This document shows positions 6,101 through 57,500 of a stretch of DNA of 64,000 nt, in pieces. Numbering within the stretch: the first letter of the stretch is position 1; each line of letters opens with the position of its first letter. The notes below the pieces were generated by a model. It saw only the letters and a program-made list of their open reading frames with translations, was not told where the DNA came from and did no database searches. Source of the DNA: Branchiostoma floridae (lineage: Eukaryota > Chordata > Leptocardii > Amphioxiformes > Branchiostomatidae); assembly GCF_000003815.2 (NCBI RefSeq), contig NC_049988.1, positions 10,113,788 through 10,177,787 of the forward strand. The letters run 5' to 3'. Both the position numbers and the translations under genes were made by a program.

Positions 6101-9100
6101 ACAAATGAAAGAAATGATTCTTTAAAAAGTTGTACAGTTTTAGTTACTGAAAGAAACAATAGAGAATAGTTATAGTTAGATTGCATACAGTGTGGGGTCT
6201 GCTGAGGAAAACGTCCTGGAATGAAAGTAGATTGATATTTACCCAAGGACCAATAAATGTAACGTTACCATATGAATTTTAGAACGTAATGTTGTTCTCC
6301 CCGTGCAATTCAGTAGCAATGATTAAGTCCCCATGTCTAAGTCACACATTTGATATAGAACCTTTTGGGGCAACAAAGGTAAAGTAACAGGACTAATGAT
6401 AAGACCTATACAACAGTCGTTATGGGTTATCAAAGCTAGATATCAACCTGTACAGTTGACGCCGTCCCCGGCATATCCGACCAGACAATCACACGTGAAA
6501 GAACCGAGTGTGTTGGTGCAGGTTGCGTTGTCGTGGCAAGTTGTATCGTTTAAACATTCGTTAATGTCTGTAAAGAGAGTGAGCCACCAAACTTATGAAC
6601 ACAATGACACCTGTATGTAGCACTTGCTGTATACATGGGATTGGAGTGGAGGCAAGCCACAAAGCTTTTGTGAATTAAGCGTAAATATGTCATTGCGAAT
6701 GCTCAACAGGTCATACCCAGCAGCTGACATTGATGGCTAAGCAAAATAGAATTCCCCAAAGCAATTGCATGCCTACGTTAGAACTCGCAACGATGCCAAA
6801 ATACCGCTACCAGGGAGTTTTTAATAAGGTTTTATTGAAACCTCCTTCTCGCTACTAATCTATACTTCTAGCTAAGCAAGCAGTTCTCTACCCGCTATAC
6901 ATGTGCATGAAGCAACTGCACCTCGCAATCAGGGAATAAACCTAAAATATAGACATTCAATGAAACAGTATCTAGGCAGCCCTAGGCGAAGAAAAAAGAA
7001 TCCAGCCATTCAGTAATGACAAATCGTATGAACCTGTGCAGTTGAGCCCGTCCCCTTCGTACCCAGCTTGGCACATACATATGAAAGACCCGTCAGTGTT
7101 GGTGCAGGTCGCGTTGACATCACAAGGGTTGTACAGGCATTCATCTATGTCTATAAGAATATAAAGCGAGCTTTAAGTCAAACACCATATTGAAGATGGG
7201 GTACTGCAAGAAAACATGATTGTTATCAAAGTTTCATGATGACCTTTTACCCGTCTATGTCTGTTTACTTGAATGATCTTGAAGCATGAAAGATGTTAAA
7301 GAATCAACAAAGAACTGCACTACTAAAATGCTTATGACATCATTTACAGCATGGCTTCATATGAAATACAGAAATAGAGGCATGTATGTAATTACATGAA
7401 AGGATAACTACATAGAAGGAAATAACTCAAGCACCGATTTTGCAATGGATGTACCACATCAAGCCACATCAATGACCTTCCATTCCCCAACAGGGCTAAG
7501 GGCTATAAGGGCTAAGACAGGTGCTCTAAAAAATTCTGTAGTATAACCTGTGCAGTTGATGCCGTCTCCATCATAGCCCACAACACAATCACACGTGAAG
7601 GAACCGATTGTGTTGGTGCAGGTTGCGTTATCGTGGCAAGTTGTTGTGTTTAGACATTCATCTATGTCTGAAAGGAACATCGATCTATCAATATTAATGT
7701 GTGGACTTTGCGACAACTGAGTTTACTATTTGCAGCGGTGCAGATGCAAGTAAGGACGAAGAATCAACTCAGAGCTCTCAGCTATCATCTGAAAGCTCAC
7801 CAAAGTCGACCATGACCAGTTGTAAGAAATTTGCTTCATCGTGATGCCTATGCAGAAGTAGACTGAAGCAAATACTAAACTCAGATAAGGAAATCCATGC
7901 GACTGAAAGCTAGGAACTAACAAGATAGGATTTGACTATCCCTTCCCAGCATCATTGCCATTGAAGAGCATTGTTACGGCAAAGATAGACATCTACCCTA
8001 CTGGCAATGACCACATGTCCAAGAGGACAAAACCTTTCACTACAGCGAAAGGTAGCAGAGTCTCAATGAAGTAATATACGGCTATATAAAGCTACAGTCT
8101 ACACCCAAGCTCCAGCCAAATCGCAACGGAAAAGGTGTGAACCTGTGCAGTTGAAACCGTCTCCGTCGAAGCCATATTCGCACATGCATGCGTAAGACCC
8201 GTCAGTGTTGGTGCAGGTCGCATTGGCATGACATAAGTCGGTGACGTTCTGGCACTCATCTATGTCTATTGGGATGAAAACAAAGCTTCGAAGTGTGTAT
8301 TGTACTGTTGTGCTAATAGACAACAATTCGCACCAAAATATATTTCACTGTTAAAGGTGCACTCTCACTGCACTTGGGGCACCGGTGCGGCACTGCGGGG
8401 TTCGTTCACTGCGGCACTGTTTTGTTATTTTCGCGACTTTTAATAATTTAGATATTGCGTAATACACAAGAGTATGACTTTAGAAGACAATAGAATACCA
8501 AAAAAAAAACGAAAGAAAATTCGTTCTTTATCTCTGAAATTCGTTGAGTCATCTACGAACCCCGCAGTGCCGCACCGGTGCCGCAAGTGCAGTCAGAGTC
8601 CAGTTTAAACGAAAATAATCTACCACACAATGGTAAGATAGCGCTGTTGAAAAGATCTTGGAGCAAAAAATCATACACCAACTCCCTCTGCTACAAGCAA
8701 GGAAACGAAGATTCATATCAAACGAAGGCGTCTTAGCCGGTTTTGATAATACGTCTTACCCGTGCAATTGAAGCCATCCCCCTCATACCCACTCACACAT
8801 TCGCACGTAAAAGACCCGTCGGTGTTGGTACAGGTAGCATTGTCGTCGCAAGGATACAAATCGCATTCGTCTATGTCTGTGAAATAAATGTAAAGAGATA
8901 CTGGAATTTGTGAAGACCACTGTTAGACGAAAATAATCTGCCACACAACGGTAAGATTGCTGTTGAAAACATTCTTGAGCAAAAATATGAGGGTTTCATT
9001 GCGAAGCAGATTAGTAAGTTTAATATCGACTTTTTACCCGTGCAATTGAATCCATCCCCGCTGTAGCCGTCCAAACATTGGCATATAAAGGACCCGTCCG

Positions 9101-12100
9101 TGTTAGTGCAGTTCGCGTAGATGTCGCAGGGTGAACTCTGGCATTCATCTATGTCTGTGTAAGGAAAATTTCTCATGACATAATTTACTATTTAAGGCTT
9201 GCATGCCACAGATGTAAAGAAATTGAGAGATACCCACAACCATTTAGGAAAGCAAGAACAATTTGGTAAAACACGAGTAGTGTCTTATGTCTATGTAACA
9301 TCTTTGGCCCATTGCATGGGGGACTAAGAAGGTAAAGACATCATGTTTATCGTCTTTTCTACAAAACCTACACATAAGAAGGGCTAAGAAAGGAGCTGTG
9401 AATGATTCAATAGTAACCTGTGCAGTTGATGCCATCTCCATCATAGCCCACTACACAATCACACGTGAAGGAACCGATTGTGTTGGTGCAGGTTGCGTTG
9501 TCGTGGCAAGTTGTCTTGTTAAGACATTCGTTAATGTCTGCATGCAAAGAAACGATATGTCAATGTGGGGAACGTTATAACAGAGATGTAGTCTTAAATC
9601 ATTAGTAGGAGTTGTGCTGATACATGATAGGTCAAAAAACGATTCAAATACAATGGTGCTGAGCAGCTAGCTAAAAGCTCTCGTACCATGACGAGGACTT
9701 TTAACAGTGCACCAAATCATGATCTCTACAGAAGTGCTGAAGCAAATACTAATTGGACTCTAAGCTCCCATCCATGTGCAAACTAAGGCACTTTCAAGCG
9801 TCTGTTGTTGAATAGAAAGGTAGCTAAGAGTCAACGTTCGAGGACCTAACGTTGTTTTACATATTTCCTCCGTTGCTACAGCAGAATGCAGACATCTAAT
9901 CTACTGGTGACTTCCAAGAGGGGAAAAATTCACGACACCCAAAGGTAGCAGGATCTACAATATGTGACAGTATCAAGGATCTAGCCAAATGACAACGAAA
10001 AATTATATGAACCTGTACAATTGGACCCATCTCCTTGGAAGCCAACATTGCACATGCATGTGTACGACCCGTCTGTGTTGGTACAGGTCGCGTTGGCATG
10101 GCAAGGGTCATACAGACACTCATCTTCGTCTGAAACAGAAAATTAGATATTAAAGACCTGTATACTTTACATGGAGAGTCGACCGCGAATGCTACTACGC
10201 GCCGCACTGCATTCATCCATTCCCTCTGCTACCACCCGAAAAGAATTCGAAGATTTACTTATTTATTTATTGAAAATGACAACAAGTCATTACACTGGGC
10301 CAGCCTAGGCAGTCTATTCAAGCTGATGACGGCTGACCCACAAAGATACAACAAACAAATCTAAATTACACATATGTACATAATAGGCCACATAGGCTAC
10401 GTAAGCTATGAGGAGCAGATGGAAGGTGCTGTAAATCGGTTTGTTGATGTTAAAAATGAATGCAGAGCGTCTGAGAGTTTTTGGTTTGTAGCAAAGTTTT
10501 AATGAAGATTTACATTAAACGAATTTTGATTGTGTGTCTTACCTGTGCAATTGAAGCCATTCCCCTCATAGCCGCTCACACACTCGCACGTAAAAGACCC
10601 GTCGGTGTTAGTGCAGGTAGCATTTTCGTCGCAAGGATACACATCGCATTCGTCTATGTCTGTGAAATAAATGTAAAAAGATATAAATTGGAGGGTGGAG
10701 TAAAGCAATCCATTCAGCATGTCATTGTGGTTGAAATTCATTTGTCAATTTGTCCCAAATTACTTGTATGCTATTAATTCCTTCACAATCGCAGGCATTT
10801 TGTTTTTACATTTTTTTTCTAAATCAGGTTCGTAGGGCCTGATGTTACCATCATGAAGATGAAGAGCGGCCCATAGCGATCACTGCAGCAGAATCTCTTC
10901 TCCCTAAGTCAGAAACATCAATCTTAGGCAAGCTTGACTTCACTGACTCAATTGTCGCTTAGAACAAAATTTCTCTATCTAAATCTACTTGGAGAAAATA
11001 AAGATTGAGACCAAGCGCTATACTGGTAGCACAATGAATAAATCTGTAGTAACCTGTACAGTTGAGGCCGTCTCCGGCATAACCCACTAAACATTGGCAA
11101 TAGTAAGATCCGTCCGTATTGACACAGGTCGCATTGTCGTGGCAAGTCGTGTTCAAACACTCGTTGATATCTGCAAAGAGAATGAACTTTCAGGTTAATG
11201 AACGCATTGGTAGCATTTAGGGCATTGGGGGCCTTTCTTTCGCAACCATAAAGCCACACTAACTACGAAAAGAAAACCGAAAATACCAACAAAGTATCTA
11301 AATATTTGCAAAGGTTAACAAAGAAGGCAACCAATAAATGCAACATGTACAAGTTAAAACTTATTAAAACCATTGTATATAAACTGTTACAATGACAAAT
11401 CTTGCTAACCTGTGCAGTTGAATCCGTCTCCTTCGTATCCCACTTGGCACGCACACATGTAGGAACCGATCGTGTTGGTGCAGTTTGCGTTTGTATGACA
11501 CGGACTCGTCTGACACTCGTCTTCATCTGTGATAAAATAGATATTAGAGATTGAGATTTTTAAGTTGCTTGGAGATGGTTAGCAACGGGCCATGCTGTAT
11601 CCTATTGCGTTGATAGTTTCAGGTTGATACGTCTCTGTACAAAGAGATTTCTACAACCCTTGCTTTACTTGCTAACGACGTTTCGGTGACCGTTTGTCAC
11701 CTTCCTCAGTGCAATTCTGACTGGTTCATATTGTACTGTATATATATATAAATACTTAACGTTTGTGACCGCATCTGTAGGGTATACATGGCAAATGCGT
11801 TTCATGACACTGGCAAAAATCGGCATAAGTTACTGTTCGAAATCATATGGACTTTCATATATGTACTCCTTACCTGTGCAGTTGAAGCCGTCCCCTTCGT
11901 ACCCTACAATGCATTGGCACGTGAAGGAGCCGTTGGTGTTTGTGCAGTTTGCATTGATGTCGCAAGGATCGCTCAGGCACTCGTCTATCTCTGTAAGGAA
12001 AACATTTGGATTAAAACGGTATAATCATAGTACGTAACAAGTGGTGAGAATGTTCACCATTTCAGACAAGAAGTAAACTCAAGATTGAATTTTTCTTAAA

Positions 12101-15100
12101 AAGCAATGACCAACCTGTACAGTTCAAGCCGTCGCCCTGGTAACCATCAAAACATTCGCAAGAGTAGTTCAGTTCATCTATGTTTGTGCAGTTTGCCTTT
12201 GGATCACAGGGGGAGCTCCGGCACGGGTCAAAAACTGTCAGAGTGAAAGGAAAATACAAAGAAATAATAATCCATTGATAGGAATTTGTTGTTTTTTAGG
12301 AAGTTTTTTTAATCATTTCAACATGCTATAAATATGATGGAAGCTCGAAGAGGTTGGGTAGGAGGAGCTTACTGTATTCACAGATAAATCGATGATCGTC
12401 TAAGCAGTCGTCAGTCCACCAGTCCCAACGTGGTGTCAAGCCAGTAGCCATCAGGACGCAGTCCTGGCCAGCCTCGTTAGCAAAGTCTGCAGGGAAGCGG
12501 TGGAATGATCCTAGGGGACTTCCGTCTGAGTACACAAACACTCCCTCGGCCATGATGTCCTCTAAGCCTGTTGGCAAGAAAACATTATTTTATACATATC
12601 CCATATTTACTACAATCCAGCTCCTACTCTCTAACCTTGCATGGTTACACAGTTCATCTGAAAAATGTTTTCCAATAATGAGAGTATCTTGCATACCTAT
12701 CCAGAAACTGACTGACTGGTTGATGTACGTCAGGATGTGGTTCAGAAGGAACTGGTGAGTCTCGTTGTTCATGACTCGGATCAGACGTCCGTCATATTGG
12801 GAACAAAGATTCTCCGCACCCGCGTAGTCTGTTGAAATGTTGCTGAAGAGGTAACAGCTTCTGTTGAACGGCACATAGGCTGACAGGCCGGGACATGCTG
12901 AAAGGAAAAAGATTAAGATGTAGAACTTTTATAAATGGCTGGTGTCTTGGGATTTGTTATCATCAGCAACGATGGTTAACGTTCAACTACCATTTTATAT
13001 CATCTGTTAAATGTAAAAACTTGTACAGTTCTTGTATCTAGTCGTACCCTATGCAGAGTAACGAAACAGTATTGAGCTATACTATTGAGGCTACTCACTG
13101 AATGGTGTCGCCGTTGAGGATGGCACTGTGATTACGGTTGTAGCATTCGTTGCGACTGTGGTTGGTGCTGCCGTAGTTGTGGTTGGCACTGCAACAGATG
13201 TAGAAACAAATGGAGTATAATTAGCACCTTCAAATATGCTATAATTTTCTTGTTACAAACGCTTTTGAGGTATTTATATTTCAGCCATACCATAGGTATG
13301 GTGAAATATATTGTATTCGTAATGTTTCTTTCTTTCTTTCTTTCTCCTGTCAAATCTTCAAATCGAATCAACTCCGCCATTTTTTAACTGATTGACTTGA
13401 AATTTGGCACAAAGGTAGAGTAAGCCAATACCCTCAGGTGTTTTTTTCATTTTTTTCATATCTGCCTTTAAAATGATTTTATTGAGGTTATTGTCAATTT
13501 TTATGTATATTTCGGGCTCCTGTACCCTGGTACTACAGCCGAATGACATGAAATTTGATACAGAGGTGCCTTGATCATATGCTCACCTAGATTCAATAAC
13601 AGTTTTGGCATACGGTACAACAAAATGCTTAATTTTGCGATTTTTGGCCATTTTTTGACCAAAAAAGGACATTTTTGGCCCCTGTAGCCTCGTTTTACAA
13701 CCGAATGATCTGAAATTTGGTATAAAAGTGCTCTGCAATTATGTGCACATAAATTCAATAAAAGTTTTCCCATACGGTACAACAAAATGCTTAATTTTGC
13801 GATTTTTTTACCAAAAAAGGACATTTTTGTCTCCTGTAGCCTCGTTTTACAACCAAATGATCTGAAATTTGGTATAAAAGTGCCCTTCAATTATGTGCAC
13901 ATAAATTCAATAAAAGTTTTCCCATACGGTACAACAAAATACTTAATTTTGCGATTTTTGGCCATTTTTTGACCAAAAAAGGACATTTTTGGCTCCTGTA
14001 GCCTCGTTTTACAACCAAATGATCTGAAATTTGGTATAAAAGTGCCCTTCAATTATGTGCACATAAATTAAATAAAAGTTTTCCCATACGGTACAACAAA
14101 TGCTTAATTTTGCGATTTTATGGCCATTTTTTGACAAAATTTTGACATTTTTGGCTCCTGTTCCCTCGATTTACAACCTAATGACCCGTAAATTGGTAAA
14201 GGGGTGCTCTAGATATTTATTCAAATGACCCATGTATATTTTTTGGCATGGACCACTTTAAAATGATATATTTGGGGGTTTTTTGGTCATTTTTGAATGG
14301 CCAAAGGGGTCAACGACCTCAAGGCCTATTGTTGCATGAGGGAGATGGCTGAAATATGCTGTATTTGCTCTCAAGCAAATGTCGGCCTTTCTAGTTTTAA
14401 AGAACAATTTTATGACAAATACATTGTCTGAAGTGTCAAAGTTTGCTTGTTTCGCACAGATAAACATCTTATATCGCTCAATTCGTATAACATTTTGAAA
14501 GACCGAATAAGTCATTGGTATAGAAAGGATTTCAATGATCTTACCATATTCGCAGATGTACCGGTAGTCTGGATCGGAGCACCTCTGAGGAACCCAGTCC
14601 CAGGGTTGAGTCAGTCCCTTGGCCATCAGCACACAGTCCCTGTCGTCCTGGTTATGCAGGGTTAGATTCGACCAGCGGTTGAAAGATCCTAAGGCAGTTC
14701 CATCCGAGTAGTTGAATTGTCCTTCTACCACCCTGTCATCTAGACCTGCAGAATATGCCAATCATGTGGTGTCACCAACTCATAACTGCTGCATTTTAAG
14801 TAATTTATGTTTTCTTTCATTCCTCCATATTATCATAATGTGCCAAATTATATGATCGATCATCGACGATCTGTTCTAAGCTCATACTTTAAAAAAATAC
14901 ATCTCAACATGTCATATGTAGACACTTTCCAAGTCAAAATAATCCATTAGAATGTTTCTTTCACTTCTTCAGAAATATGCATGTCCCCTATTGGCTTGTA
15001 CATCATAGTTACGTTGATTTGATTGATTGATTGACTGCATGATTCTTACCTATCCAATAACTCGTTGCTTGATCTGTGTAGGTTTCAATGTAGTCGACGA

Positions 15101-18100
15101 AGAATAGGTGAGTTTCGCTGTCAAAGACCCTGGCCAGACGACCGCTGTTGTCTCTACAGTCCTGCTCGGCGCCCGGGTAGTCAGTCGTGGTGTTGCCGAA
15201 CAGATAACAGTTGTCCCCGAAGGGCACATAGCCATCTAAACCTGGGCATGCTGCAAGTTGGGATATAAATGTCAGGCTGCAGCGAATTACTGCTATAATT
15301 TGTAACTATTTTCGACAATGCTACTGCATGAGAAATCTTTAAGAGGACAAACATTTATCGGAGTGAAATTTCCTCATTAGCACAACGTCATTATGACTTA
15401 CATAAAGAATCACCCTTCCTTCCTTCGTCATGTATAACAAGTTACAGCTTAGAGTAAGCTTTTAGAATAGAGTAGACATATTCTATACTGTTCTACACTA
15501 TTTGTGGGTTTTTCTCCTTTCCAGTTACCTGCAATTAGCCCTCGGGCATGAATTTGCAATAAAGTATCATTGTATGCCCAGACAATTACATGAATATCTG
15601 TGCCATCTATAGCAAATGCGTTTGTGACTGTTTGCTGGGATAATGATTTAAACCAGTACTGGTAAAAAAAGGCGTTCTTCACTTACGATTGGGTTCACAA
15701 TGCGTTCCGTTGCCGAGGAAGTCGTCCATACATGTACAGGTGAACCCCTCATATGTTTCCTGACATGTAGCGTTTTCAGAACAGTTGTGTGTGCCGTCCA
15801 AGCACTCCTCAGGGGCGACGTCGATGGCACTTTCTATGGAAAGAAATGGTAGGACAATATTTTTTTAACGAATTTGCTCAGTGCAAGGCCATTGACCACT
15901 TCTTGGCACTGAACTACGCTCACTGTGGCAGCATCTCTTCTCCCTAAGTCAGAATATATATACTGTCGTTGCATGTAATGTTGCATAATCGTGATGTGAG
16001 GGAACAAGGCTTCCAATAACCTCTGACGGCTTGTTGATGTCAAACTTGTCACACGTGCATAGAGTCACATGTCACAGTCACAATTGGGCCAGATACCTGA
16101 AGAGGACCGAGTAGTTCGGTCGAAAATTCGGGGGGTGGGGGTGGGGGGCTATTTTTGTTAAATGGAGAACACAGATTAACTATAACGTTACAGTTATTAT
16201 GTATTTGTAACTCATTGCATAACGATATGATGACATTTGTAGAGAAATACAGAGTACTGGTCGCTTACACATAAACTCCTACAAAAAAACTGCGAATATG
16301 ATAAAACCACTGACGAACCATTGTCTCCAACAAGAGTTCGATTGGCGTCGAGAGTTAAGTTCCCGAGTTCAGTCATGTTCATGACCATGTCTTTCAGCAT
16401 AGGCACGTCCGGTTCTGTGACATTGAACTCTACACCGACGACCACGCTTCCCTCTCTGCAATACACATGTGAAAATGTTTCAGACGTTGGATATAGGAGA
16501 ATTTTTTTTCACACAACCAGCAGGTACTTACACTGCTTACGTTTCGATATCTCTCAGACACCTTCGTCAGAACCTCTAACTGGAGTTCTGGCGATCTGGA
16601 TAAGAAAGTCACATTTGGGATTGTTTTCTCACCACAAAAGCTACATATAGCGGTGAGAAGCAGAACTCCAGTTAGAAGCTCTGACGAGGTGTCTGAGAGA
16701 CATCGAAACGTAAGCAATGTAGGTAGAGAACAGCTACTTGCAACTCTTGTCACGTTTCTTGAAATGTCTTTACAAAAAAAGCACACTCATTACAGAATTA
16801 CAAAAACATAGACGTTATATCTGGACCCACATACAGGCATCATATATGTGCCACCCGTATATATGCGGGCTCAGCACGTGTCACACAGCGTAGAAATACA
16901 TGGTTTTGCCGGGAATTGCTGGCATGCAGCTAGATATTGAACTTCTAGGAGGATTATTACTTTAACTAAAGTCGTTCTACCTGTGGAATTGCCATATAGG
17001 GAGCTATAATAGGCGATTGCCATGATGTAAGAATGAAAGAAGAAGAATGGATACTTACCGCACGTATACTATGTTGATGCTGACGAGTATGTTTGTAGCG
17101 CCTCGGGTGATAAAACTGAAGAGATTCCACAACTGTAAAATAATCATGGCGGTGTAACCTTTGTTAGAACTGATTATGCAGTCACTAAATGTGCATTTAT
17201 TTTATACTTAAAAGTATACCTCAACGATATATGGTGTTTGAACAGTGCTAAGAGGACAAAAGTCTGACTGTAGATATACTTGGGATACACTCAATTTCAA
17301 GGCCATTGGAACGTTTAGAGCAAAGAAAAGCTAAAACCTCTGTGAAAGACTGAGTAACGGAGGATATATGTATATAGCACCCGAAATATGGAAATAACAA
17401 AAGCTATAGCTATAGTATGACTGAGTTCGAACCACAATGCAACTTTCAGAGAGCTCAGTATTTACATTCAGAGCATATTTGTTCATTTACAACACATTAG
17501 CACCCAAACGTACTGACAGCTTACACGGGTACAGAGGTGAAATTGAAAGCCCTTTTATCACTTACCAATCGTAGGATGTACCGTAATAGAGCTGCCTCCC
17601 TGGCCGGATTTGTGTGTACATCAGCATACTCGGGGTTTATTATCACAATTGAGATGTAAACGAGAACCAATCCTGTAAAAATATCAAATGCACATGTTCC
17701 AAAAAATGCATTACATGTATTTTGTTGTATATAACGAACTTAACATGAACTAATTCAAGAAAAGCAACGGATGGTCTTAACTGTCGGTACCATAGCCATC
17801 AACGTATTACAGTCGTGGATGTACATGCATATATGTGCTGTATAACGTACAACACTCAGCAGTCTAGTGACAAATGTACGATGTATATGTATCTAGGGGG
17901 GTGTTAAAATGTCTATGGATGTATTTTATCATTTGATTAATATCGATATATAATACGAAGCTGGTGTGTTACGCCGAACGGTGGTTATACCGGCTATATA
18001 GATACAGATACAGATATTCATTGAAGCATAGTTCTACTGAATTAAAACAGATTAGTCACAACATTAAACTTACTGTTGCATTCACGGCCATCCCCATGAA

Positions 18101-32700: not shown

Positions 32701-35700
32701 TTATTCAAACTTGCTTAACAAGCCTGTAACACAACTATTAAAGAAAATGTCATGCTGTATATTGAAGTGGCATCATGTGGCATAATGGTTAGAGTGTTTG
32801 CCCACAAACCCAAGGGTGGTCTGCTCAAACCCCTACATGCCTACTAGTAGATGTTGTGCCCTTGGAAAAGGCCCAAAGTTACACATGAATTTTCCCAATT
32901 AACTCAGGTGAAAATGAGTACTTAGCTTGACTTACAGATGTCCCTTAGATAGGACATTACATGTAAATGGACATTCCATGTTTGAGAGGACCCAAACCAA
33001 GATGGTTAAAGACCCCAACACACTTAGAAGGGTTCTTCCCAGTAGATCAAATCTTATAGACTTGTGTACACCTTACATACCATGCTTGGAGCCCTCAACC
33101 TAATGAACCAAAGCAGGTAGAAGAAGGAAGGAAACAGTAAAATGTTATAACATCTCACCTTGACCAAATGTTTCCACCACTTGCCCATGAGTGGTTGTCC
33201 CAGGCTCGTAAGCCTTGTGGCCCAACTTGTCACAGTCCACCACTGCCGCTCCCAGCCCCTGCAGTCTCCTAGAAACTGCAGTCTTACCCGACGCAATCCC
33301 GCCTGTCAGCCCGAGTACATACGGGTGGGCTCTGATCTCAGGCTTGGGCTGGAAAAAAAGAAACATCAATTATATAACTTTCTGTAATCTTGATCGGTGT
33401 ATGGACACATCCATGTAGTGTCTGTACCCCCAGTAGTGTCCGTACCCCCAGTACTGTCCTTAACCCCAGTATTGTCCGTACACCAAGTTGTATCCATACC
33501 CCCAGTTGTATCCATACCCCCAGTTGTATCCATACCCCCAGTCGTGTCAGTACCCCCAGTCGTGTCAGCACCCTAGTAGTGTCAGTCCCCCAGTTATGTC
33601 TGTACCCCCAGTAGTGTCCATACCCCCAGTAGTGTCCATACTCACAGTCCATACCCCCAGTAGTATTTATGTATTCTTTCTGCTGTCAAGCAACAAGCAG
33701 TAATGTTATTCAGTACATACTTGCAGTTTACCTTTACAATAAACTAACACTGATAAAACTTTGAACCCCCTTTTACCTGTACTGGTCTGAGTAGAGTTCC
33801 CAGGAGCCTCTGCCTGAGGTTGGAGGAAGACACCTTGGACTCCTCTGAGGGAGTTGGGGAGGGCTCAGGCACAAGGTCGATGATATGTACAGCAAGTTCA
33901 CTCAACCCCTTTAAGAAAAGACAACAGTTAGGAATTCTGAGTGTGTGACCAAATGTGAAAAATTTATGTTGAATGATATTAATCACACCATCAAAAAATT
34001 AAAGCCAGCAAAGCTTTGATTTAAATTTAATTGCAAACGAAGAGACAGGCTTTTGCTTGTTATGTATTTTTTTGTTTGTGTTGAAGGTACAGATGCATCT
34101 TGTTTACTTATTTGTATCAGATGCATCTTGTTTACTTTCTAAGTGTATCAAGTGCAGGCTTTGTGTAACCATTGCATGGTCAAGTTGTACTATAACGCAC
34201 CTGTCCAGTTTTGTACTTTGGCAGATATGGCAGGCTACTATTGTCTCATCTGACAGCTATCGAAACATGTTTTCATAGGCTGCTATCCTTCAGATTCTAC
34301 AAATAACTAAGATATACTATAACAACATTGCATGAGAAGTGACTGGATAGCCTGACTGTATTAGAGAATAACACAATACAAAGAACATGTGGTAAAATGA
34401 GCTACTACCATAGACTCCATCATAGACATACCTTCTTTTTCCTGGTATCATTGACAAAATCTGCACCTTTCTTTGTTTCCGTGGAGACCACGATGGCTTG
34501 TATGTCAGGATTCCATCCTGCGGGACCAAGAGGGTCTGAGATGGGCACGACGTCCGCCTCCATGGCGGGTTTGGTCTCCCTGAGGAACTGGCGGACATTT
34601 TCTATACGGACTTCTACAGGCTCTATCAACTCACATAGGATTTTACCTGCAAAGAACATCATCAGAAAATTTACTTTCAGGTTTTCCTGGAACATAAGGA
34701 AGAATCTACTTAAATCATTGTGACATTTTCAAGCTTCTGATTCATTATTTTTTGGTTGTGTATGCAAAATGGTTTTAACAAGTTTCTTTTTAACACACAC
34801 TTGCATGTAGACATCTTGCCCTCAAATAACTGAGAACATCGGACATAAGTCCATATAGTGAGTGAGTGTGTGTGTGCTCAATTGCATGTATAGCTCCGGA
34901 CACCGTAGGTAACACTCCATCTAAAAGAAGANNNNNNNNNNNNNNNNNNNNNNNNNNNNNNNNNNNNNNNNNNNNNNNNNNNNNNNNNNNNNNNNNNNNN
35001 NNNNNNNNNNNNNNNNNNNNNNNNNNNNNNNNNNNNNNNNNNNNNNNNNNNNNNNNNNNNNNNNNNNNNNNNNNNNNNNNNNNNNNNNNNNNNNNNNNNN
35101 NNNNNNNNNNNNNNNNNNNNNNNNNNNNNNNNNNNNNNNNNNNNNNNNNNNNNNNNNNNNNNNNNNNNNNNNNNNNNNNNNNNNNNNNNNNNNNNNNNNN
35201 NNNNNNNNNNNNNNNNNNNNNNNNNNNNNNNNNNNNNNNNNNNNNNNNNNNNNNNNNNNNNNNNNNNNNNNNNNNNNNNNNNNNNNNNNNNNNNNNNNNN
35301 NNNNNNNNNNNNNNNNNNNNNNNNNNNNNNNNNNNNNNNNNNNNNNNNNNNNNNNNNNNNNNNNNNNNNNNNNNNNNNNNNNNNNNNNNNNNNNNNNNNN
35401 NNNNNNNNNNNNNNNNNNNNNNNNNNNNNNNNNNNNNNNNNNNNNNNNNNNNNNNNNNNNNNNNNNNNNNNNNNNNNNNNNNNNNNNNNNNNNNNNNNNN
35501 NNNNNNNNNNNNNNNNNNNNNNNNNNNNNNNNNNNNNNNNNNNNNNNNNNNNNNNNNNNNNNTGGCAGACAAAACGTCTGTAGTATATGAGATTTCTGGT
35601 ACGCTTTGTGAATGTACTGATGGAATGCTCTTACTCCTGAAAAGTTTAGTGGAGTGGAGTATTCTTGTGATTTTTGATCTAGTTTTATGAAAGACTTTAG

Positions 35701-42500: not shown

Positions 42501-45500
42501 GAGCTGATGGAAGGCTGATGTAATGGTTTGTGGAACCTTAGCCAGAGGCAGTGCTAACGCTAACACCTTCCCCTGGCATTGAGCCATCCTGTGAGGAGGC
42601 ATTACTGCCCTTTTCTATTCCAGGAACCTTTTATATCCATGGTGATGTATGCTATAGCTGTAGGTGATATTCATGCTGGCTTTAGGGTGGCTTACCTGCA
42701 GGGAAATGCTGTGATCAGTTTGTGTTATTTTAGGCCACCATTTGGGTTTAAAGTCTGAATGATTTATCTGTTTCTTATGGGAATCCTACTAGGATTATCA
42801 CAATAGTCTAGCTGAGAACTTATTAGTAATAGCTGGGGTTTAAGCAGTTATAGATTTTGATGCTATAGTATAATAGACAGAATGTTGTTTGTAGTATTAT
42901 CTAGGCTAGGATTCTAGATAAGAATTTGACTTGAACAGGTTTTGTAGAACATAGCCCCACCATTTATTTTCTTCCTCGTTATTGACTGACTCTGTCTTTT
43001 TCTTTTAAACATGGCATCTGTTTTAATCCCTTGCAGGTGCCCGTGTGAATACCAAAGACAGCAGGTGGTTGACACCTCTCCACAGGGCATGTGCTGCCAA
43101 GAGTGAGGTAAGAACAGCATTGGACTTGTTACGTCAGAAAATATCAAGTATTATAAGATTAAATTGAAATATCAAGTTGAAAACAGAGTCTGAGAGCAGT
43201 GTCATGATAATACAGTTTCAAGTTTTTTTTCTACAAGCCTTCTGTTTTTATCCTGACTGCTTGCTAAATTGTCACTTTGACATGTCTGACTCTAAGAATC
43301 AAGGAAATAGATTGGTGTGGCCTTAGTTATATCCCATATCTTTTTTGTCCGCTAGATTTTCTGCAGATGACATTCGTATAAGTAATGTAGAGTCAGGGCT
43401 GGAATACACAAGGTGTACCCTTGAATGGGGACACAAACTCAGTGATTTATTGTGTCTAGAAAGATAAATTGTTTCTTTTAATCAAGTGCTGCCCAGGCCC
43501 TGTTTCATTACAATTGGCCCTGCAGCACAAACCAATTTCTCACCCTGCTATTTCAGGACACAGTAAGGATGCTGTTAAAGCACTCGGCTGATGTGAACGC
43601 ACGGGACAAAAACTGGCAGACGCCGCTCCATGTGGCCGCGGCGAATAACGCCATTGGCTGTGCCGAGGCGTTGATTCCTCTCCTTTCAAACGTGAACGTG
43701 TCCGACAGGGCTGGAAGAACTGCCCTGCACCACGCAGCGTTTAACGGTCACACAGATGTGAGTACAAACATTAACACTACAGGATGGCACAGTTTAAGTG
43801 TGCTGGGTGTGTCTTATGTGAATTATCTTGTAAAAGCAGCATTTTCTTCCAGGCCTTCAAAAAGAAGATAAAAAATGTACAAAATGTATTTCAACCAGCA
43901 GTTCTTTTTTGTAAGACACATGCAAAGATAGGTTTTGAAATGAAGCCAGTATACTCGATTCGTTATTTTTGGTCCCAAACTCCAAGAGATATGATTACTT
44001 CTCAATTTGTGAAGGACTGGAAGGATGTAACGCTAGTTCACCTTTATCCGTTGGGTAACCTAAATCCGTTGTTTTAAAAGCTGGGTATTTGCAGATATCA
44101 CGTCCACGCACGGTGGTTTTCAACATGTTGAATTTTTAAAATATTGTGGCTATTTTCAAAACATTGCAATATCCATCGACTTGATAACCATAAATACCCT
44201 GTTTTCAAAAACAACGGATTTGGGGTATCCCACGGATAAAGGTGAACTAGCGTTACTGCTGGTTAGTATGAAAAACAGCAAAGGTGGATTAAGGAGTTTT
44301 GTTGGTGTAAAGACCATAGGTAACAATGAGACACAAGATCAATTTTGAATGTGACATTTGGGGCCAGGGATCAGAATAGGAAGACCTCTATACATGTAGA
44401 TGTAACATTGAAATCCTTTAAACTTCAAATGTGTTTGGGCCTAAGCGATACACATTTTTCATCTAGCTTCCAATGAACTTGTAAATTTGCACAATGCTTA
44501 TTTAGATGAATCTGTGTGATTGAACAGATTTAAAACTTAAAAGATTATAAACCTACTGTGGACTGGTATGTCCTTTCTGCTATTCAAAATTGCCATTGTC
44601 AGCAAAACTGAAAGGAAGTTGAAATTTCTTTCTGAACCTGCCAGGGTCTCTGACATAAAAACTATTTCTGAAATGTTTCTTTTTCAACATGCATGTAGCT
44701 TGACACTTCCATACAACTGATCTCTTGTTCTACATGCACGTGTTTGTACTGTATATGCATGAGTCGAGAATATAGCTTTTGCTAAGTGTGCCGATGGAGC
44801 TCTATGAAGTGTTGTGTAATCGTGCATTGCTGCTACATGTATGTAGATGGTAGAGCTCCTGCTCTCAAAGGGGGCAAGGGTCAACTCCCTGGACAAACAT
44901 GGCCGCCGATCACTTCACTGGGCTGCAGTACAGGGTAAGATGGGTAGGGTCAAAGGTCAAACCACCTGTTAGCGCTTTGTATTTCATTTTTGTTTATACG
45001 TCATTGTGATGCATTGTGATGTGGCATGTAGAAATGACCATGTTGCAGCTATGCATGACGGTGCATGGCGAGTCAGAATCATTTTGCTGAGTTGTTTCCC
45101 ATCATCATACAATGCACTACACACTCTCCAAATTTTCTCTCCACTATAGCCTACAACTTTCACATGATTATTTCTTACCTCTCTTTCCTCAGGTAGAACC
45201 TCTAGCTTGTTGGTGCATATTCACAATGAAGGCGGTCTGCAGACATGGTCATTTTTACTGTCACATAATGTAATAATAAAACACGGCAATGTCAGTCTCT
45301 CCTGTGACTTACCTTAAAGCTTATTTGTGGTGTTTTGCTGTCAATGTTGCGGCCAGCCCAATTGCCTAAGTTGTACTGTGCTGACCAAATGCACTAACTC
45401 CCCTATTGCCATTGACCTAAAATTGATTTGTGCTGCGATTTAATGGCCTGACTTGCAACCCCAACCTTGATGAAGTTCAAGACAAAAAGTGTGTACTAGT

Positions 45501-48500
45501 TTGAGATGAAAGACAAGACACCAGACACAGAAGTCACAAGAGAGACGACTTGCTATGACATCTCACAAGTCATCAGAAGTACACTATAGGTGTCTACAGA
45601 GTAGTGTATATGAACACCTTATACTCACCTGTCTGTCCTCTTCCCCACCTGCCCTTCCACCCGCCAACCTCTCCGTCCTGCATGCTGTACCCCTTCCTGT
45701 CAGATGGTGGCGTTACTGATTTCCAAGGGTGCGAATGTCAATGCCTTCGACAAGAAGGATCGCAGATCCCTACACTTTGCAACTTACATGGGTAAGGAGG
45801 CTAAGGATCTGACTGTAGCTGTTGTGTTTTGTTTCACAGGGGATCTTCTCAGGTATAGGGGAAGCTTGAGGAATGGAGGGGTGCTAGTTAGTTCTGAAAC
45901 TGGGAAAAGAATCCTTTTGTAACGTTACTAAGAAATTGGAAAACAACACAATGCAACACTTTTATCATTTCATATAGCAGTCATGTGATGTAACATCACT
46001 TACACATATTATTCTGGTCCATTGTGATAATCACCCATCCGCATTTGAAATGAGCACTTTCTAAATTCCATACAGGTACGTTTCTATTGGCAGCCATTTT
46101 AAATTTCATAACACCATTTTGTACAATTTGGTTATTAAAACTCACAAAGTAACAGTTTGTTAATCACTGTCATCAAGTCTAGAGACTGAAATATTTCAGA
46201 TTTAATGTGCTAACCAACACAGCACCATTTCTCAAGCTATTCACCTTTGACCTCTGACCTGACTTGACCTGATCAGCACTGACCAATAGCAGGTTCTTCT
46301 CTCTCCTATCTCTAACATGTGCCGCCCCCCAATGTAGATGGTGGTTCTTCTGCTGGAAAAGGGGGCTAATGTCAATGCATATGATAGGCTGGATCGCAGG
46401 GCTCTGCACTACGCTTCCTGTATGGGTAAGGGGTGTGCTATTTAACCCAGTACAGTTTGTCCCTGGCCTGTCTCACGTGGCTGGGGTTACAGGCTATTCA
46501 AATCCAATCCACTCCTTGTGTAACAAAGAACGACGCCATGTTACTACATAATCTTGAAGTCAAGTCATGCAAAGAAATTTGAAAAACTTAAAACAAAATT
46601 GAACTGGCCAATGCACACAACATATAGCATTAGCTATGACAATTTTTTGTTGAATGAAGCTAAGAAAACAGTAAAATAACAAACTTGGAAAAATTGTTTT
46701 CAATGGCTGAAAGAGGTGAAGAAGTCTTTCCATGGTACTACACACGAACGTACGAAAATGTTTGGATCTACCAGAAATTTTTGTATTCTTTTATCCTGTT
46801 TTGGAAATATTTGAAGAGTGTAATTACTACATGTCCATATATACAGGTGTTTAGTCTAGCATCAACCCCAGCCTGGAGTGAGTTCAGTTCCTTCCAAGAG
46901 GAGTGTTTTAGAAATTAGAGGACTTAACAATTAGACAGCCAGTTTGAAAAGAATCTGAAAATCGTGGGGGAAACTTGTAATGGGATCTTAAAGGATTTAC
47001 CCATGGGAAAGAATTTTATGTTCATTTGATAATCAAAGTTGATTTGGATGTATACGACTGCAATTTGTGATTTTTTTAAATGTCAATGAGACATCCTACA
47101 ATCACGCTATTTTTTTATGTTTTGCACCTTTATTATATGAAAACCATATATATATCAAAACAAAGGCTGATCAAACCTTAAATCAATCTACTTTCAGAAA
47201 AATCCAGGAAATTAATTTTTGTTCTCCATGAAACTTATAAAAAAATCATCACTGTATTTTGACTAGTTTGGAATTCCTCATTTTAGACCAGGTTTTATTG
47301 CTGTGAATCCTCAAAAACAAGAAGTACATACAGATGTACAGAGTATCTTAAAAACTGTGGACTGTAAATGACTGACCTATTATATGCATCTTGTTTATTT
47401 AATGGTGTATAACTGCATGCTTCATGTTACAATATTTCACCATAGCATTAGTAACTCCCATGTATGTAACCTGCACGGACACACCAACTAACAAACTCAC
47501 ACACATCTCACCCAATGGCTCGACTCGCATCACCAATACAAGTTGAACCAGCCTGAAGAGAATCTTGTTTTTACGCACAAATTTTTTTGTTCTTTATATA
47601 TAAGATACAAAAAAATAGCTGACTATACATGGCTGTAGCTCTGTCAATGTACTGAAGTTGCACTTATTATGGATTAGATTGCACACTTTGATGAATTTAT
47701 TATCACTGCAATTTTAAAGTAAGTATCACTGCTGAGTATGTGGCTGTATAAGAACACAGTGCATTCTCAGAGCTTTGACAGTACTATATGGATATGTTAA
47801 GACTGATACACAATCATGCATCATTTTATTAGCCTTTGTTTGCCATCACCATGATTGCCTCTTGTAGCTTGCAAGGCTTACATGTACATGTTAATTACCC
47901 ATATCTGTAAGCGCTATGTATGTTCAGTATAAAAGGAACAATGTGATAAAACAAGTTTAAATTTCTAGAGTTTGTGCACAATTTGTCAATCAGCTTTGGA
48001 TGTTCCCACTTTTTACATTATTTTTGCCTGTTCGTGAAGTCAAAATAAAGCTGTTATCGCTTTTTCTGTGAATGCATGCTATTTTAGATTTTAATGCAAC
48101 TGCTGAAATTGTTTGTCAACTGTCAATCTGAAAGTTTGCATGGGTACCGTGACCAAGGAAGTTTTGACACTTAAAACAGCATAAGATGTTCACTTCAATG
48201 GTCAAATATGGTTTTTAATGATCCACACAAATCGGATTTTTCCTACCTGATACCATTAATTTTGGTAAGGAAAAAAAGCACTATAATAGAAAACTATTCA
48301 TTTTTTTTTTCTGACCAAAACATTTTTTGAAACAATTGTTTCCCCACAAAACAAATCATATCAATTTTTTTATGGCACGGTATTGTCAAGGTCTCAATAA
48401 TTTTGTTTTATAACAATGTACAATGTAGTTGTTTTTGCCCCCTGTAAAATGCTTCACCATCATTGCTTCTGACTGACCTTTGACCCTGAATGTCATAGGT

Positions 48501-51500
48501 CATGTGGAGGTGGTCAAAGTGTTGGTGAACCATGGAGCAGAGCTCAACTGTAAGGATAAAAAGGTTGGTATGGCACCTTGTTCTTACAGTCAATCTAGAC
48601 TTTAAAGCTTAGTGAAAAGTATTCTTTGCTGTCCATTTGTACAGTACATGATGCTAACAGACTATATGAATATTGTACAGTCAAACCTATACTAAGTGAC
48701 CACCTGTACATGTACATAAGGATCAGCTGACCGATGTGAGCTCATTTTCCCATTGTAACAAGCATTAAGAAGCATAAAGTGACTGCCTGTCCATAAAGGC
48801 GTGATTTTATATTAGTCCACTGACTGGTCTTCTCTGGCAGTTTTGAGTGTGTCTCTGAATTTGATGTGAGTTCTCACAATTATATTACATCTTCCAAATG
48901 ATGGGGTTTAGATGCATTTTACAAGTCCTGGAATGCTGATATAGAGTCCTCAACGTTCCTGGCATTCCAGGGGATGGAGTGGAATTGAGATGTAAAACAC
49001 TGTCCTCTGAACTGTTTGCCATATTTACTTTGAGTCTCTTGTTTCCATGGTTACAGATGTACACGCCCCTACATGCAGCAGCCTCCAGTGGACAGATCAC
49101 AGTGGTGAAAATGCTATTGGATCTTGGAGTTGAGGTAGGACATTTTAGTTCTTAATTTTACCAAACTTTCAAGTTTGCAAAAAAGTGTGTCTACTTTATA
49201 TACTACTGAAGAAAATAGCCTGCCTGTATGCAATAGTAGAAAACCAAGCTTTCAGGTCGCAAAGTAGCATTCGGAATGTTTGGTGTCCTCCCATATCTTT
49301 TGTAGTAGCTATCATTTGGCAAGAATGTTTCTTTTCCAGAACAGCTGCTTTTGGTAGAATGCATTAGACTTTTTAGAGTTGAAGATTTTTATTGTAAGTC
49401 TCTGAACAAAAATATACAAATTTTATTTGCAGTCTTTTTTGTATCTTAATTGTCTTGGAACCAATGCTTGTATGCATAGTTAAGAGGTGATGGGCAAATG
49501 CTTATTGTAGGGAATGTGTTATACGTGGAGAAGGAAGATTTTTGGTTCTTATGCACTGGTGCTCACCATGCACATAATGAATACGAAAATTATTCAGATT
49601 AGGCTTTCGGCAAAATGTAGTTGTGATGGCTACTTGACAAGTACATGTAGTAGTATTGTGTATCATTGGATATGCCTTGCATTTTCTAGTCAGTCACTGC
49701 TCTGTGATGCTTGTGAAAACATTGCAATCTCAAAATCAGTTTTTGGCTTGGAGTTTCCAATCTCTTTGGTTCAAGTCCTGCAATCATGCCCATACAAACA
49801 TGCAAGTCTTTGCCAAATCAACAAGGAGGGCATTACTATGAGACTTGCTCCTGATTGTACATACTGTTATCCTGTGAACTGAATTCATTTCTTTTCATGC
49901 CTACCTCCCTGTCAGTCTGTGTCCAAACTTTCTAGAACATACGTGGATGTAAGTACAGTGTGCGGTGTCTTTACTACATACAGTACCATAGGCTGGCTGG
50001 GGCTGATACATGCAGGCATCTCACCTTTGCACTCTGTACTTTGACCTATTGCACTTGCATGCTCATCCACAATGCTATGGTGATACCTTTTGTCATAGTT
50101 GTATCAGATTTGCAGTTTTGCAGGTGAAGTGTTAAAATGAATTCAAGCTTAGCTCTGTCAGATATTATCCACAATAACCTTTTTATTATATGTTACTCTT
50201 CAAAATGTCTTGACACAAATTGAAAAGGGTATTTCAAAACTTGACCCCAATGATATACATGACACCAATGCTTCAGTTAGTGTTAGAAGTTCTTACAAAA
50301 TTGAACAAATTCTTTGATCTCGAAAGTGTCTGACAATTTGCATGTTTGTGTACTTGAAGCCAGAAAGGCAGCATTTAATTTAGATAGGGCTGAAGGTTTA
50401 AAACACAACATTCTCAATGATAAATGCATCATGGCTGACTAGTGTAACTATTTTTCTAACAGGAAGACACTCAACTGACATTAACACTGACATTAAAACT
50501 GCTGTTACCGTATTTGTTCAGTGACATAGTTCATGTGGTAGTTCATTGCTTGCTTTATACTCATTGGCACATTCCTGCATGAGTATTTATGAACATGTAT
50601 AGATCTAGCTATGTCACAGTTTAACTGCATGTCCAGTCTGTATAGTTACGTAATTTTTCAAATTAGTTTGCATGTTGTGTTTTGATTCCCTGTCCACATA
50701 CTAACTTTACCAGACAAAGAGTATGGTACCTGCAGAGTTGAAATACTGGATCTTATGCATGTCTGGTCTGTATACATGATTTTTCAAATCAGTTTGCATG
50801 TTGTGTTTTGATTCCCTGTCCAAATACTAACTAAAGTGAATATGGAAATTGAAATGTTTATTACGCATAAATACTGACCATTGTATTTTTATCTATGAAG
50901 GACATTGAAAAATCACATTGATTTCATAAATTCTATATGTGAAGTCCAGTGTCTTCTATATTCATATATATTCCTGATTTTGCTATCATTTTCATTTTAC
51001 GAAAATGTGGATACTTCTCTCATTCAGTTTATGACATCAAACATACTACTAGTATTTAGGCACATGTTTGATACATTTTATTTATGATGAAAATCTTCCA
51101 TGCTTTCATTGATGTTATCAACTGCAAAATGAATATAGGAATAGATTTTGTAATGCCTAAGTGCCTAGGCCAGGGACTGCCCCTTGCTCTGCTCCGTTAG
51201 AAGTCTCCAGGTTGCACGGTCCTTTGCACTTGACTTTGTAATTTTGTAATGCTGATTCAGTATTAAGAGAATATTTCATTTATCTTTCAGATTGACACGC
51301 CCAACTACTACGGTAACACTCCGCTTCACGTGGCCTGCTATAACGGCCAGGACGTGGTAGTTAACGAGCTGCTAACGTTCGGCACGTCCGTCAACATCAT
51401 GAACCACCGCGGACAGACTCCGCTGCACTTTGCCGCAGCCTCTTCCCATGGTGCTCTGTGTCTGGAGCTGCTGGTTAACGAGGGAGCTGACTGCAATGTG

Positions 51501-54500: not shown

Positions 54501-57500
54501 AACCTTGGTGTGAGACCTCTTTCTGAGTAGTTGTGCTCCATCCACGCTACAGCCACCCCAGAGGATGATGGGAAAGTCACCTCCGACCTGACGGGTGAGC
54601 CATGTTTCTGTGGTTCTGGTGACGTGTGCTGGCATGTGGAATCTTAGATGTTGTGATTCTTGGCACATTACTTTTGGCACAGCCTTATCCCACTGTTGGT
54701 CTCGTGTATTTGCAATCGGTATCATTCACTGTTGGTCTACCAGTATCCTTCAAGCAATCTTGGTGAAACAGACAAATTTGACATCTCAAGCCATTGTTTG
54801 CCATGAGGAATAAGGGGCTTTTTCTGTGGCATTATATTGTTTTGACTTCCTTAAGTTCCTCAGTCTGCTTAATCTTCTTTGAGTACATCTGCATCCAACA
54901 CACACATCATAGTGACAACATATTCTACAATGTGTATGTGACATTGTGCCTTTTTAACTTAAGTGTCAGATAGATTTTTGAAAGTACAAGCCTCATACCA
55001 TGAGCTTATATTTAGAAAAGACTGACTGTGCAAGGTAGTATCTTTGAGTTAACTTGCCCAGCCATTGTTCAAATTCTAGAGAGCTGACCCTCTTGAATTT
55101 TAAGAGCCTAATTCTTGTTGGAAATGAAGACAACAAACGATAAGTTTGATGAAAAAAAAATTTCAACATATAAATGACAAACATTACATTTGCTTTTTAG
55201 AAAAAGTGTAATGTTTGTCATTTATATGTTGAAATAGATTTTACACGCATTCATTTTTTTCTGGTATTTTTGTTTCGAAATGAATTGTGGTAGAATTGTG
55301 GCCATTCATTCCTCTCTTAAAATACCATATTAGTTTACTAACCCCTTACTTAACACAATGTTTCACACAATATACTACTTAATACACTTCCATGCATCTA
55401 CAATCACAGCTTAAAATTAGCACAATACAAAAACATGTACATATACCTTGCTTGGGAATGTAAAGGTACTGCAAGCTTTCTGCTTGGTGAACATTTTTCA
55501 GATTTTCCGTCTAAGCCAATGAAAAGCTTCAATGTTGGTTTTGTACTTGTATGTTGTGCATGATTTGTGTACATGTTCAAGCTAGCCGGTCTCTATTTGC
55601 GCATGTGATTTTCTGACACTTAAAATGATGAATGAAATGTAGTACCATAAAGTGAGCTACAGTTTAGGGGCTAAGGACTGTTAAAAAAAAATTTTTTTAC
55701 AAGGTGGGTAAAACAAAGATTTTTGCAATGGTCTTGTATGATTTTAAGATTCCACTTGAATAACTCCCATCTTCAATAGTGACATTGAAGTGGACTGTAC
55801 ATGTACTAGTATATCAATGAGTTTATAACATTTCACTTTTGCTCACTATGTCAGTACTGGTATCTCTATTGTTCCATGTACATGTATGTACAGATGTAGC
55901 CTCCTTCACCGGCCTCTCTGGGAAGCTTGGCAATTTTTTTTTTGGGGGGGGGGGGGTAGATCGATTCTCGCTTTTTAACCGGAATATGCCGGGAAAGGAA
56001 TATATGCCGGGAAAGGAATATACACCGGAAAGCTTGAACGGGCTAGGCGAAATCGGCTTCCCAGTAGGCCTGCTACTTGTCGCTATCTACAAACGAAATA
56101 ATGATTAAGAATGCCTTTCAGACGGCCAATTAATGTATTCGCGAGAAGTTATTCACACTGCCGCGAGAAGTAATTCACACTTCAACGTTAATAGTGCACG
56201 GCCACCCCGAAGCGTGCCACAAACCTACGTAACGTTACCGGAAACCGTGCACACGCTGCCTGCCTTTGTCACTTCCAGAGTCACAATAATTGATACAACA
56301 GTTTGAATAATTGATACACGTGCAAAACTTACATTTCAGATCAGTGAAAAACATTTTTTCCAGTGGGTTTAAAAACATACTTTCATACACCATCGATGAT
56401 CCGACTGGCAATCTGAATGGGGAGGGGGGGCGAGAGTTACGTAAAAAGACGGTCGCTCGATCTCGAAAAATACACAAAAAGATTTCCCACACGTAGTGCA
56501 AACAAGCCTTGCCTGATCAGCAACAAAGCATGAAGTGGCGAGATGACGATGACCATGGTGAGTTCTCTGGCAATCGACGGCAAAATCTGATAGCAGAGCG
56601 ACTTGCCTTGAACTGTAGCAAGTCCCACAAAACAATCATTGCCTTCGCAGACCGCAGCAATGGCCAGGGATTGTCCTTCCCTCAACTCGGGGAAGCTCTT
56701 TCGTACATGATGGGAAGTTTCAGCGGAGTTTTTCTACGGTAAGTACTCATTTTAAAATGAGCCGTGTTTTGAAATGCGTGACCCGACGACCGTTACAAAG
56801 TTACGGGTCATCGCGCAACGGGGTGTGTGCCGGGCTGCCAGTGCTGGACGCGTTTATGACGGGAAGTTCGCACATCCATACCAAATGGTGATAAGTGTTT
56901 TTTAATAGGGCTTTGTAGATAGCGACAAGTAGCAGGCCTACTGGGAAGCCGATTTCGCCTAGCCCGTACAAGCTTTCCGGTGTATATTCCTTTCCCGGCA
57001 TATATTCCTTTCCCGGCATATTCCGGTTAAAAAGCGATCTACCCCCCCCAAAAAAAAAATTGCCAAGCTTCCCAGAGAGGCCGGTGAAGGAGGCTAGTAC
57101 AGATGCATATTTTGTTTGTCTAGTGCCATTAAAACTAAACAAAGTTAAATGATAAACCATGTAAAAAAAACATTGATTGTCCTTGATTTCAATATCTTAC
57201 TTGATTGTGAACAAAGTGAACAAAATGTTGAACATTGTTTTGCATATTTTCTAATTGCTGCAATCAGTGATAACCTCTTACTTGCACATGTTAAGTCCTA
57301 TGTTTCCAGAACTAGGGTCTGCAGACATGCCTGATAATGTGTAAAAAAATGACATTCCTCTTTTGAACCGATATACTGTAAATGCAGAAATGTTCGCGGT
57401 GGATTAATGTTCGTAGTTTTTGCGGTGACCACTTCACCGCGAACTTAAAACTACCGCGAACATTTTTCTATTATGGTATTAGACTGCAGTCTATGGTGTT

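Follow-up and report, generated by a model that had tools for sequence, protein, structure and literature searches.

Does a single gene of the lancelet Branchiostoma floridae alter one part of its protein by choosing one exon out of three? The question is raised by an ankyrin-repeat gene encoded on the plus strand of the window, which is the whole stretch of 64,000 nucleotides (nt) that was analysed (C10:10113788-10177787 of an assembly with 513,431,437 bases and 431 contigs). The gene runs from 39666 or earlier to the end of the window. It is taken to be of the ANKRD28/44/52 type from its residue pattern, and the residues around exon 6b presumably follow the pattern of human ANKRD28/44. Between constant exons 5 and 7 lie three similar exons, 6a, 6b and 6c, which very probably represent a tandem triplication spliced in a mutually exclusive manner to give three isoforms of a scaffold protein. 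An earlier note on this DNA had proposed the mutually exclusive reading, which is supported at the DNA level by the equal length, phase and homology of the exons, the constraint on their sequence, the loss of frame in other combinations, exon ends inside ankyrin helices and the single-copy state of the locus. The cluster is a further example of a known arrangement; no description of it was found among the papers listed in literature searches, and it may be present as an unnamed entry in a genome-wide list.

The upstream constant exon 5 (43557..43757, plus strand, 201 nt) ends in phase 0 and is followed by GTGAGT. Variant exons 6a (44847..44934), 6b (45704..45791) and 6c (46338..46425), also on the plus strand, are each 88 nt long and encode 29 residues plus a terminal G. 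The downstream constant exon 7 (48499..48563, plus strand, 65 nt) is preceded by TAG and opens with the two bases still needed for the Gly codon. All three variant exons start with ATGGT (Met-Val), are entered in phase 0, are left in phase 1 and have GT-AG borders. These coordinates, lengths, phases, starts and borders, together with the end of exon 5 and the start of exon 7, are all as the earlier note gave them. Its claim that the exons are homologous and encode the same ankyrin stretch also holds, with pairwise amino-acid identities of 18/29 (6a-6b), 16/29 (6a-6c) and 19/29 (6b-6c). The corresponding nucleotide identities are 55/88, 51/88 and 59/88, and a three-way comparison leaves 15 of the 29 residues invariant and 14 variable. 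Exons 6a, 6b and 6c are hence neighbours of the same length and phase that code for homologous protein.

The reading frame provides a strict rule for how these exons can be combined. Exons 4 to 9 were joined in silico over 238 residues in all eight combinations of the variant exons. The three messages with 6a, 6b or 6c alone were open across the 238 residues, and the remaining five (none, the three pairs and the triple) all met an early stop. This stop falls in exon 7 when no variant exon, 6a+6b or all three are used, and in 6c for 6a+6c and 6b+6c. Each exon is thus open alone and broken if included jointly or skipped, as expected of a mutually exclusive cluster. The claim that exactly one exon restores the frame is borne out for these eight messages, the exact rule being n = 1 modulo 3. 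Messages with none, two or three copies would be destroyed by nonsense-mediated decay, which is predicted because the stops in 6c or exon 7 have further exon junctions downstream. The frame filter tells which messages are translatable, not whether splicing itself is exclusive. The best explanation is that exclusivity would be enforced at least by the frame together with nonsense-mediated decay.

Differences among the three exons are concentrated at third codon positions, which account for 18/33 (6a-6b), 19/37 (6a-6c) and 16/29 (6b-6c) of them (P = 0.0012, 0.0023 and 0.0027). In the same order, the Nei-Gojobori count gave proportions of synonymous differences (pS) of 0.74, 0.76 and 0.74 and of nonsynonymous differences (pN) of 0.26, 0.31 and 0.21. 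The corrected synonymous distance (dS) was about 3.6 or undefined, and the nonsynonymous distance (dN) was 0.25-0.41 among the exon pairs. With pN far below pS, each copy shows the coding constraint expected of a member of such a cluster, and strong purifying selection acts on all three copies. The introns between the copies, of 769 and 546 nt, are unrelated. Pairwise comparison of the four introns revealed no direct similarity at E <= 0.1, and its three matches of 14-17 nt were all inverted. The flanking introns are about 24-28% identical over 200 nt and 45-55% identical over the first 20 nt past the donors. Since the intron pairs have no direct match, the copies are old, and all three have been maintained as protein-coding since the duplication. 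Synonymous sites are saturated, and the cluster is therefore predicted in all lancelets. Intron 5 also contains an imperfect palindrome of about 230 bp (44027-44256; 72.6% over 237 columns), probably a short inverted-repeat transposable element.

By ankyrin numbering, each variant exon codes for helix 2 of one repeat, the loop after it and helix 1 of the following repeat, and the three isoforms would differ in these elements. The Ank_2 score is retained in all isoforms (209.8 bits for 6a, 197.1 for 6b and 200.8 for 6c). Variable positions make up 3/10 of the preceding helix, 6/10 of the loop and 5/9 of the following helix. The concentration of differences in the loop that the earlier note had described is not significant (loop vs rest, P = 0.45). 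Of the six positions randomized in DARPin libraries, five are variable here (P = 0.07), which is suggestive only; exposed positions vary anyway. It is plausible that the three variants present different binding surfaces and so change partner binding, and they would probably tune the association of the scaffold with its partners.

In the proposed mechanism, exon 5 of the pre-mRNA would be joined to one of 6a, 6b or 6c, and the chosen exon would then be joined to exon 7. How the choice is steered can be suggested with less confidence from the splice sites. These were scored with a splice-site matrix for exons 5, 6a, 6b, 6c, 7, 9 and 12. The acceptor of 6b is the strongest of the three (7.4, percentile 97.4), followed by those of 6c (3.1, 83.0) and 6a (1.2, 70.6), while the donors of 6a, 6b and 6c score 8.5, 7.5 and 7.5 (percentile 98.7-99.5 of all GT in the window). 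The description of these splice sites as good is therefore right for the three donors and the 6b acceptor, and less so for the acceptors of 6c and 6a. Exon 6b, with its strong acceptor, may be near the default, and 6a, with its weak acceptor, the alternative. Of the acceptors listed from exon 5 to exon 7, the one with the highest score (13.5) is not part of any exon: found at 45193 in the 6a-6b intron, it is directly followed by GT (CAG/GTAGAA), like a recursive-splicing site.

TGCATG is an RBFOX-type word, and several copies lie close to 6a and 6b on the plus strand. Two candidate RBFOX sites (44690 and 44756, spanning 44690..44761) are situated 152 and 86 nt before 6a, and two more (45052 and 45062, spanning 45052..45067) 118 and 128 nt after it. 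A fifth copy (45679..45684) ends 20 nt before 6b, in the acceptor region, and is a candidate repressing site. These five occur in a stretch of 1,157 nt that begins 300 nt before 6a and reaches to 6b, compared with 0.9 expected in shuffles (local P = 0.0035). Exon 6a might be selected through the action of RBFOX-type factors on the copies around it and on the one at the 6b acceptor.

Alternatively, 6a could be selected by a 14-nt complement that draws its donor to the exon 7 acceptor, looping out 6b and 6c. The first arm, AGGGTCAAAGGTCA (44946..44959, plus strand), occupies +12..+25 from the 6a donor and is a candidate RNA selector or nuclear-receptor-like DNA site. The second arm, TGACCTTTGACCCT (48474..48487, plus strand), occupies -25..-12 from the exon 7 acceptor. 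Their perfect 14-nt complement is the longest among 64 donor-acceptor pairs, the other 63 of which reach at most 8, and it was attained by none of 2,000 shuffles (maximum 12). A weaker partner is present 60-120 nt upstream of 6c (energy -23.4). The arms may instead be two intronic transcription-factor sites of the nuclear-receptor DR1 type, and the chances of this DNA-site reading and of an RNA helix are about even. The genome contains 118 copies of the 14-nt word as against 6 of a reversed control, so it is favoured as such, and it resembles a DR1 element. However, each arm is separated from a splice site by precisely 11 nt, and the arms are oppositely oriented, one on either side of the alternative introns. 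Also, a complement of 14 or more was found in only 2 of 20,000 random pairs of real 60-nt segments lying 0.5-6 kb apart (2,664 of these pairs scored 0, partly owing to N gaps).

Several observations weigh against mutually exclusive splicing or against the proposed steering. Steric exclusion, which takes less than 50 nt from donor to branch point, does not fit introns of 769 and 546 nt, and every border is GT-AG with a GTAAG donor, so that there is no mixture of intron types for U2/U12 incompatibility; two simple mechanisms of exclusion are thus inapplicable. TGCATG is more densely clustered elsewhere, with seven copies in about 740 nt (50056-50795) in the intron before exon 9. At least five copies were found in 18 of 1260 windows of 1 kb, and the word does not rank in the top 15 hexamers by enrichment in the 300-nt flanks. 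The duplex energy of the two arms (-34.7) is past the 1% point (-32.4) of the null from real sequence and short of its 0.1% point (-40.0). In addition, a single-species search of little power found no docking site that all three exons would share: 4 of 40 shuffles reached the best upstream dock, and 36 of 40 reached the best one downstream. By this same search, the cluster shows no single dock able to pair with a selector next to each of its variable exons.

Among explanations that dispense with a choice between three working exons, the first is that only one copy, probably 6b, is a functional exon, the others being left over from duplication. The weak acceptor of 6a (1.2, percentile 70.6) would fit this account, as would the resemblance to vertebrate ANKRD28, which is greatest for 6b, but we regard it as improbable. 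Once synonymous sites are saturated, relics should retain neither frame nor identity, but all three copies are open, their phases and their splice dinucleotides are intact, and their pN is much lower than the saturated pS. When an equal number of random substitutions was applied in 20,000 simulations per pair, no more than 0.03% of the runs left neutral copies with the protein identity observed.

The same small probability is given to the suggestion that the extra copies are mainly poison exons, with double inclusion or skipping deliberately lowering the protein level via decay. The early stop in any combination except a single exon is what such a device would produce. A poison exon, however, needs no conserved protein sequence, and here all three are constrained as protein and each copy alone yields an open message.

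That two haplotypes or a collapsed repeat were assembled as false tandem copies has next to no probability, for although lancelet genomes are highly polymorphic, any two copies show 29-37 differences over their 88 bases, their introns do not match each other, no N is present from 43758 to 48498 and the stretch matches only itself in the assembly. An assembly duplicate, which the earlier note had named as grounds for giving up its proposal, is ruled out by the unrelated introns and this single match, obtained with a 1,901-nt stretch against the 513-Mb assembly. Exon 6b was found genome-wide at precisely these three places at E <= 0.001 (8/8 candidates scored). Within the window there is no fourth copy: a profile built from the exons themselves scored 112, 109 and 104 for the three and 44 for the next best segment, an ordinary ankyrin repeat in exon 5. 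Chance likeness between unrelated ankyrin repeats was considered as well, and is ruled out in the window by the same difference in scores.

The mutually exclusive arrangement proposed for 6a, 6b and 6c has counterparts in known systems. In the human catalogue of such exons, the lengths are not multiples of three in 377 of 629 clusters (60%) (PMC5740500). The criteria published there, namely similarity, frame, length and ends inside secondary structure, are matched by the present cluster. The catalogue describes homologous exons in tandem that share length and phase, with ends inside secondary structure and a frame that is broken by joint inclusion (PMC5740500), and the lancelet exons are alike in each respect. 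The human clusters were confirmed by RNA reads, the present one is predicted from DNA, and gene and lineage differ. ANKRD36C is the only ankyrin-named gene noted in the excerpt (PMC5740500). Docking-site/selector clusters include those of Dscam exons 4, 6, 9 and 17, 14-3-3zeta, Mhc and MRP1 (PMC6071210). The lancelet cluster resembles them in its tandem array, its long introns and a complementary pair, one half of which adjoins a single variable exon and the other half the constant exon that follows. Unlike them, it has a clear partner for 6a only, and no dock shared by all its variable exons was found.

The gene encodes a long ankyrin-repeat protein, as do ANKRD28/44/52, with matches to Pfam Ank families and 23 segments that score as ankyrin between 41649 and 69490 (window numbering, covering the window and the downstream contig, where the stretch beyond the window contains N gaps). 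Among the best 60 of 483 matched PDB sequences, none carries the name ANKRD28, ANKRD44 or ANKRD52. In viral contigs two stretches matched a pattern, and neither of them is a relative. A 215-residue query matched its own locus at 94-97% identity and other places at no more than 50% among the matches listed (150/690 candidates scored), which gives no indication that the gene has another close copy. Vertebrates, in contrast, have the three genes ANKRD28, ANKRD44 and ANKRD52. Human PP6 is described as combining its catalytic subunit with a single PP6R and, as scaffold subunit, ANKRD28, 44 or 52 (PMC9070665). Should all three lancelet isoforms be produced, exon choice would alter one defined ankyrin surface of a phosphatase scaffold, and the choice of PP6 substrates and partners could be studied with three natural variants differing at 14 of 29 residues. 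The locus would also provide a clean case of alternative splicing in one gene as opposed to vertebrate gene duplication. A bolder and rather unlikely extension is that the three-way switch matches the diversity that vertebrates obtain from these paralogues, giving tissue-specific PP6 scaffolds with different binding surfaces that would be chosen by RBFOX factors together with a helix between the 6a donor and the exon 7 acceptor that loops out 6b and 6c.

Other features of the window lie outside the cluster. Downstream, at 55821-57196, two similar peptides on opposite strands about 1 kb apart form an inverted repeat, probably of a mobile element. An N run at 34932-35562 marks an assembly gap or a withheld stretch. 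A minus-strand gene at 33145-34728 contains a dephospho-CoA kinase domain (Pfam CoaE, 6.1e-14). The open reading frame at 34420-34728, upstream in this gene, has no Pfam match; it looks like bifunctional CoA synthase. The minus strand from 882 to 15864 carries one or more genes with many EGF-like repeats, as judged by eye, within which a C-type lectin domain (Pfam Lectin_C) is located at 12590-12928.

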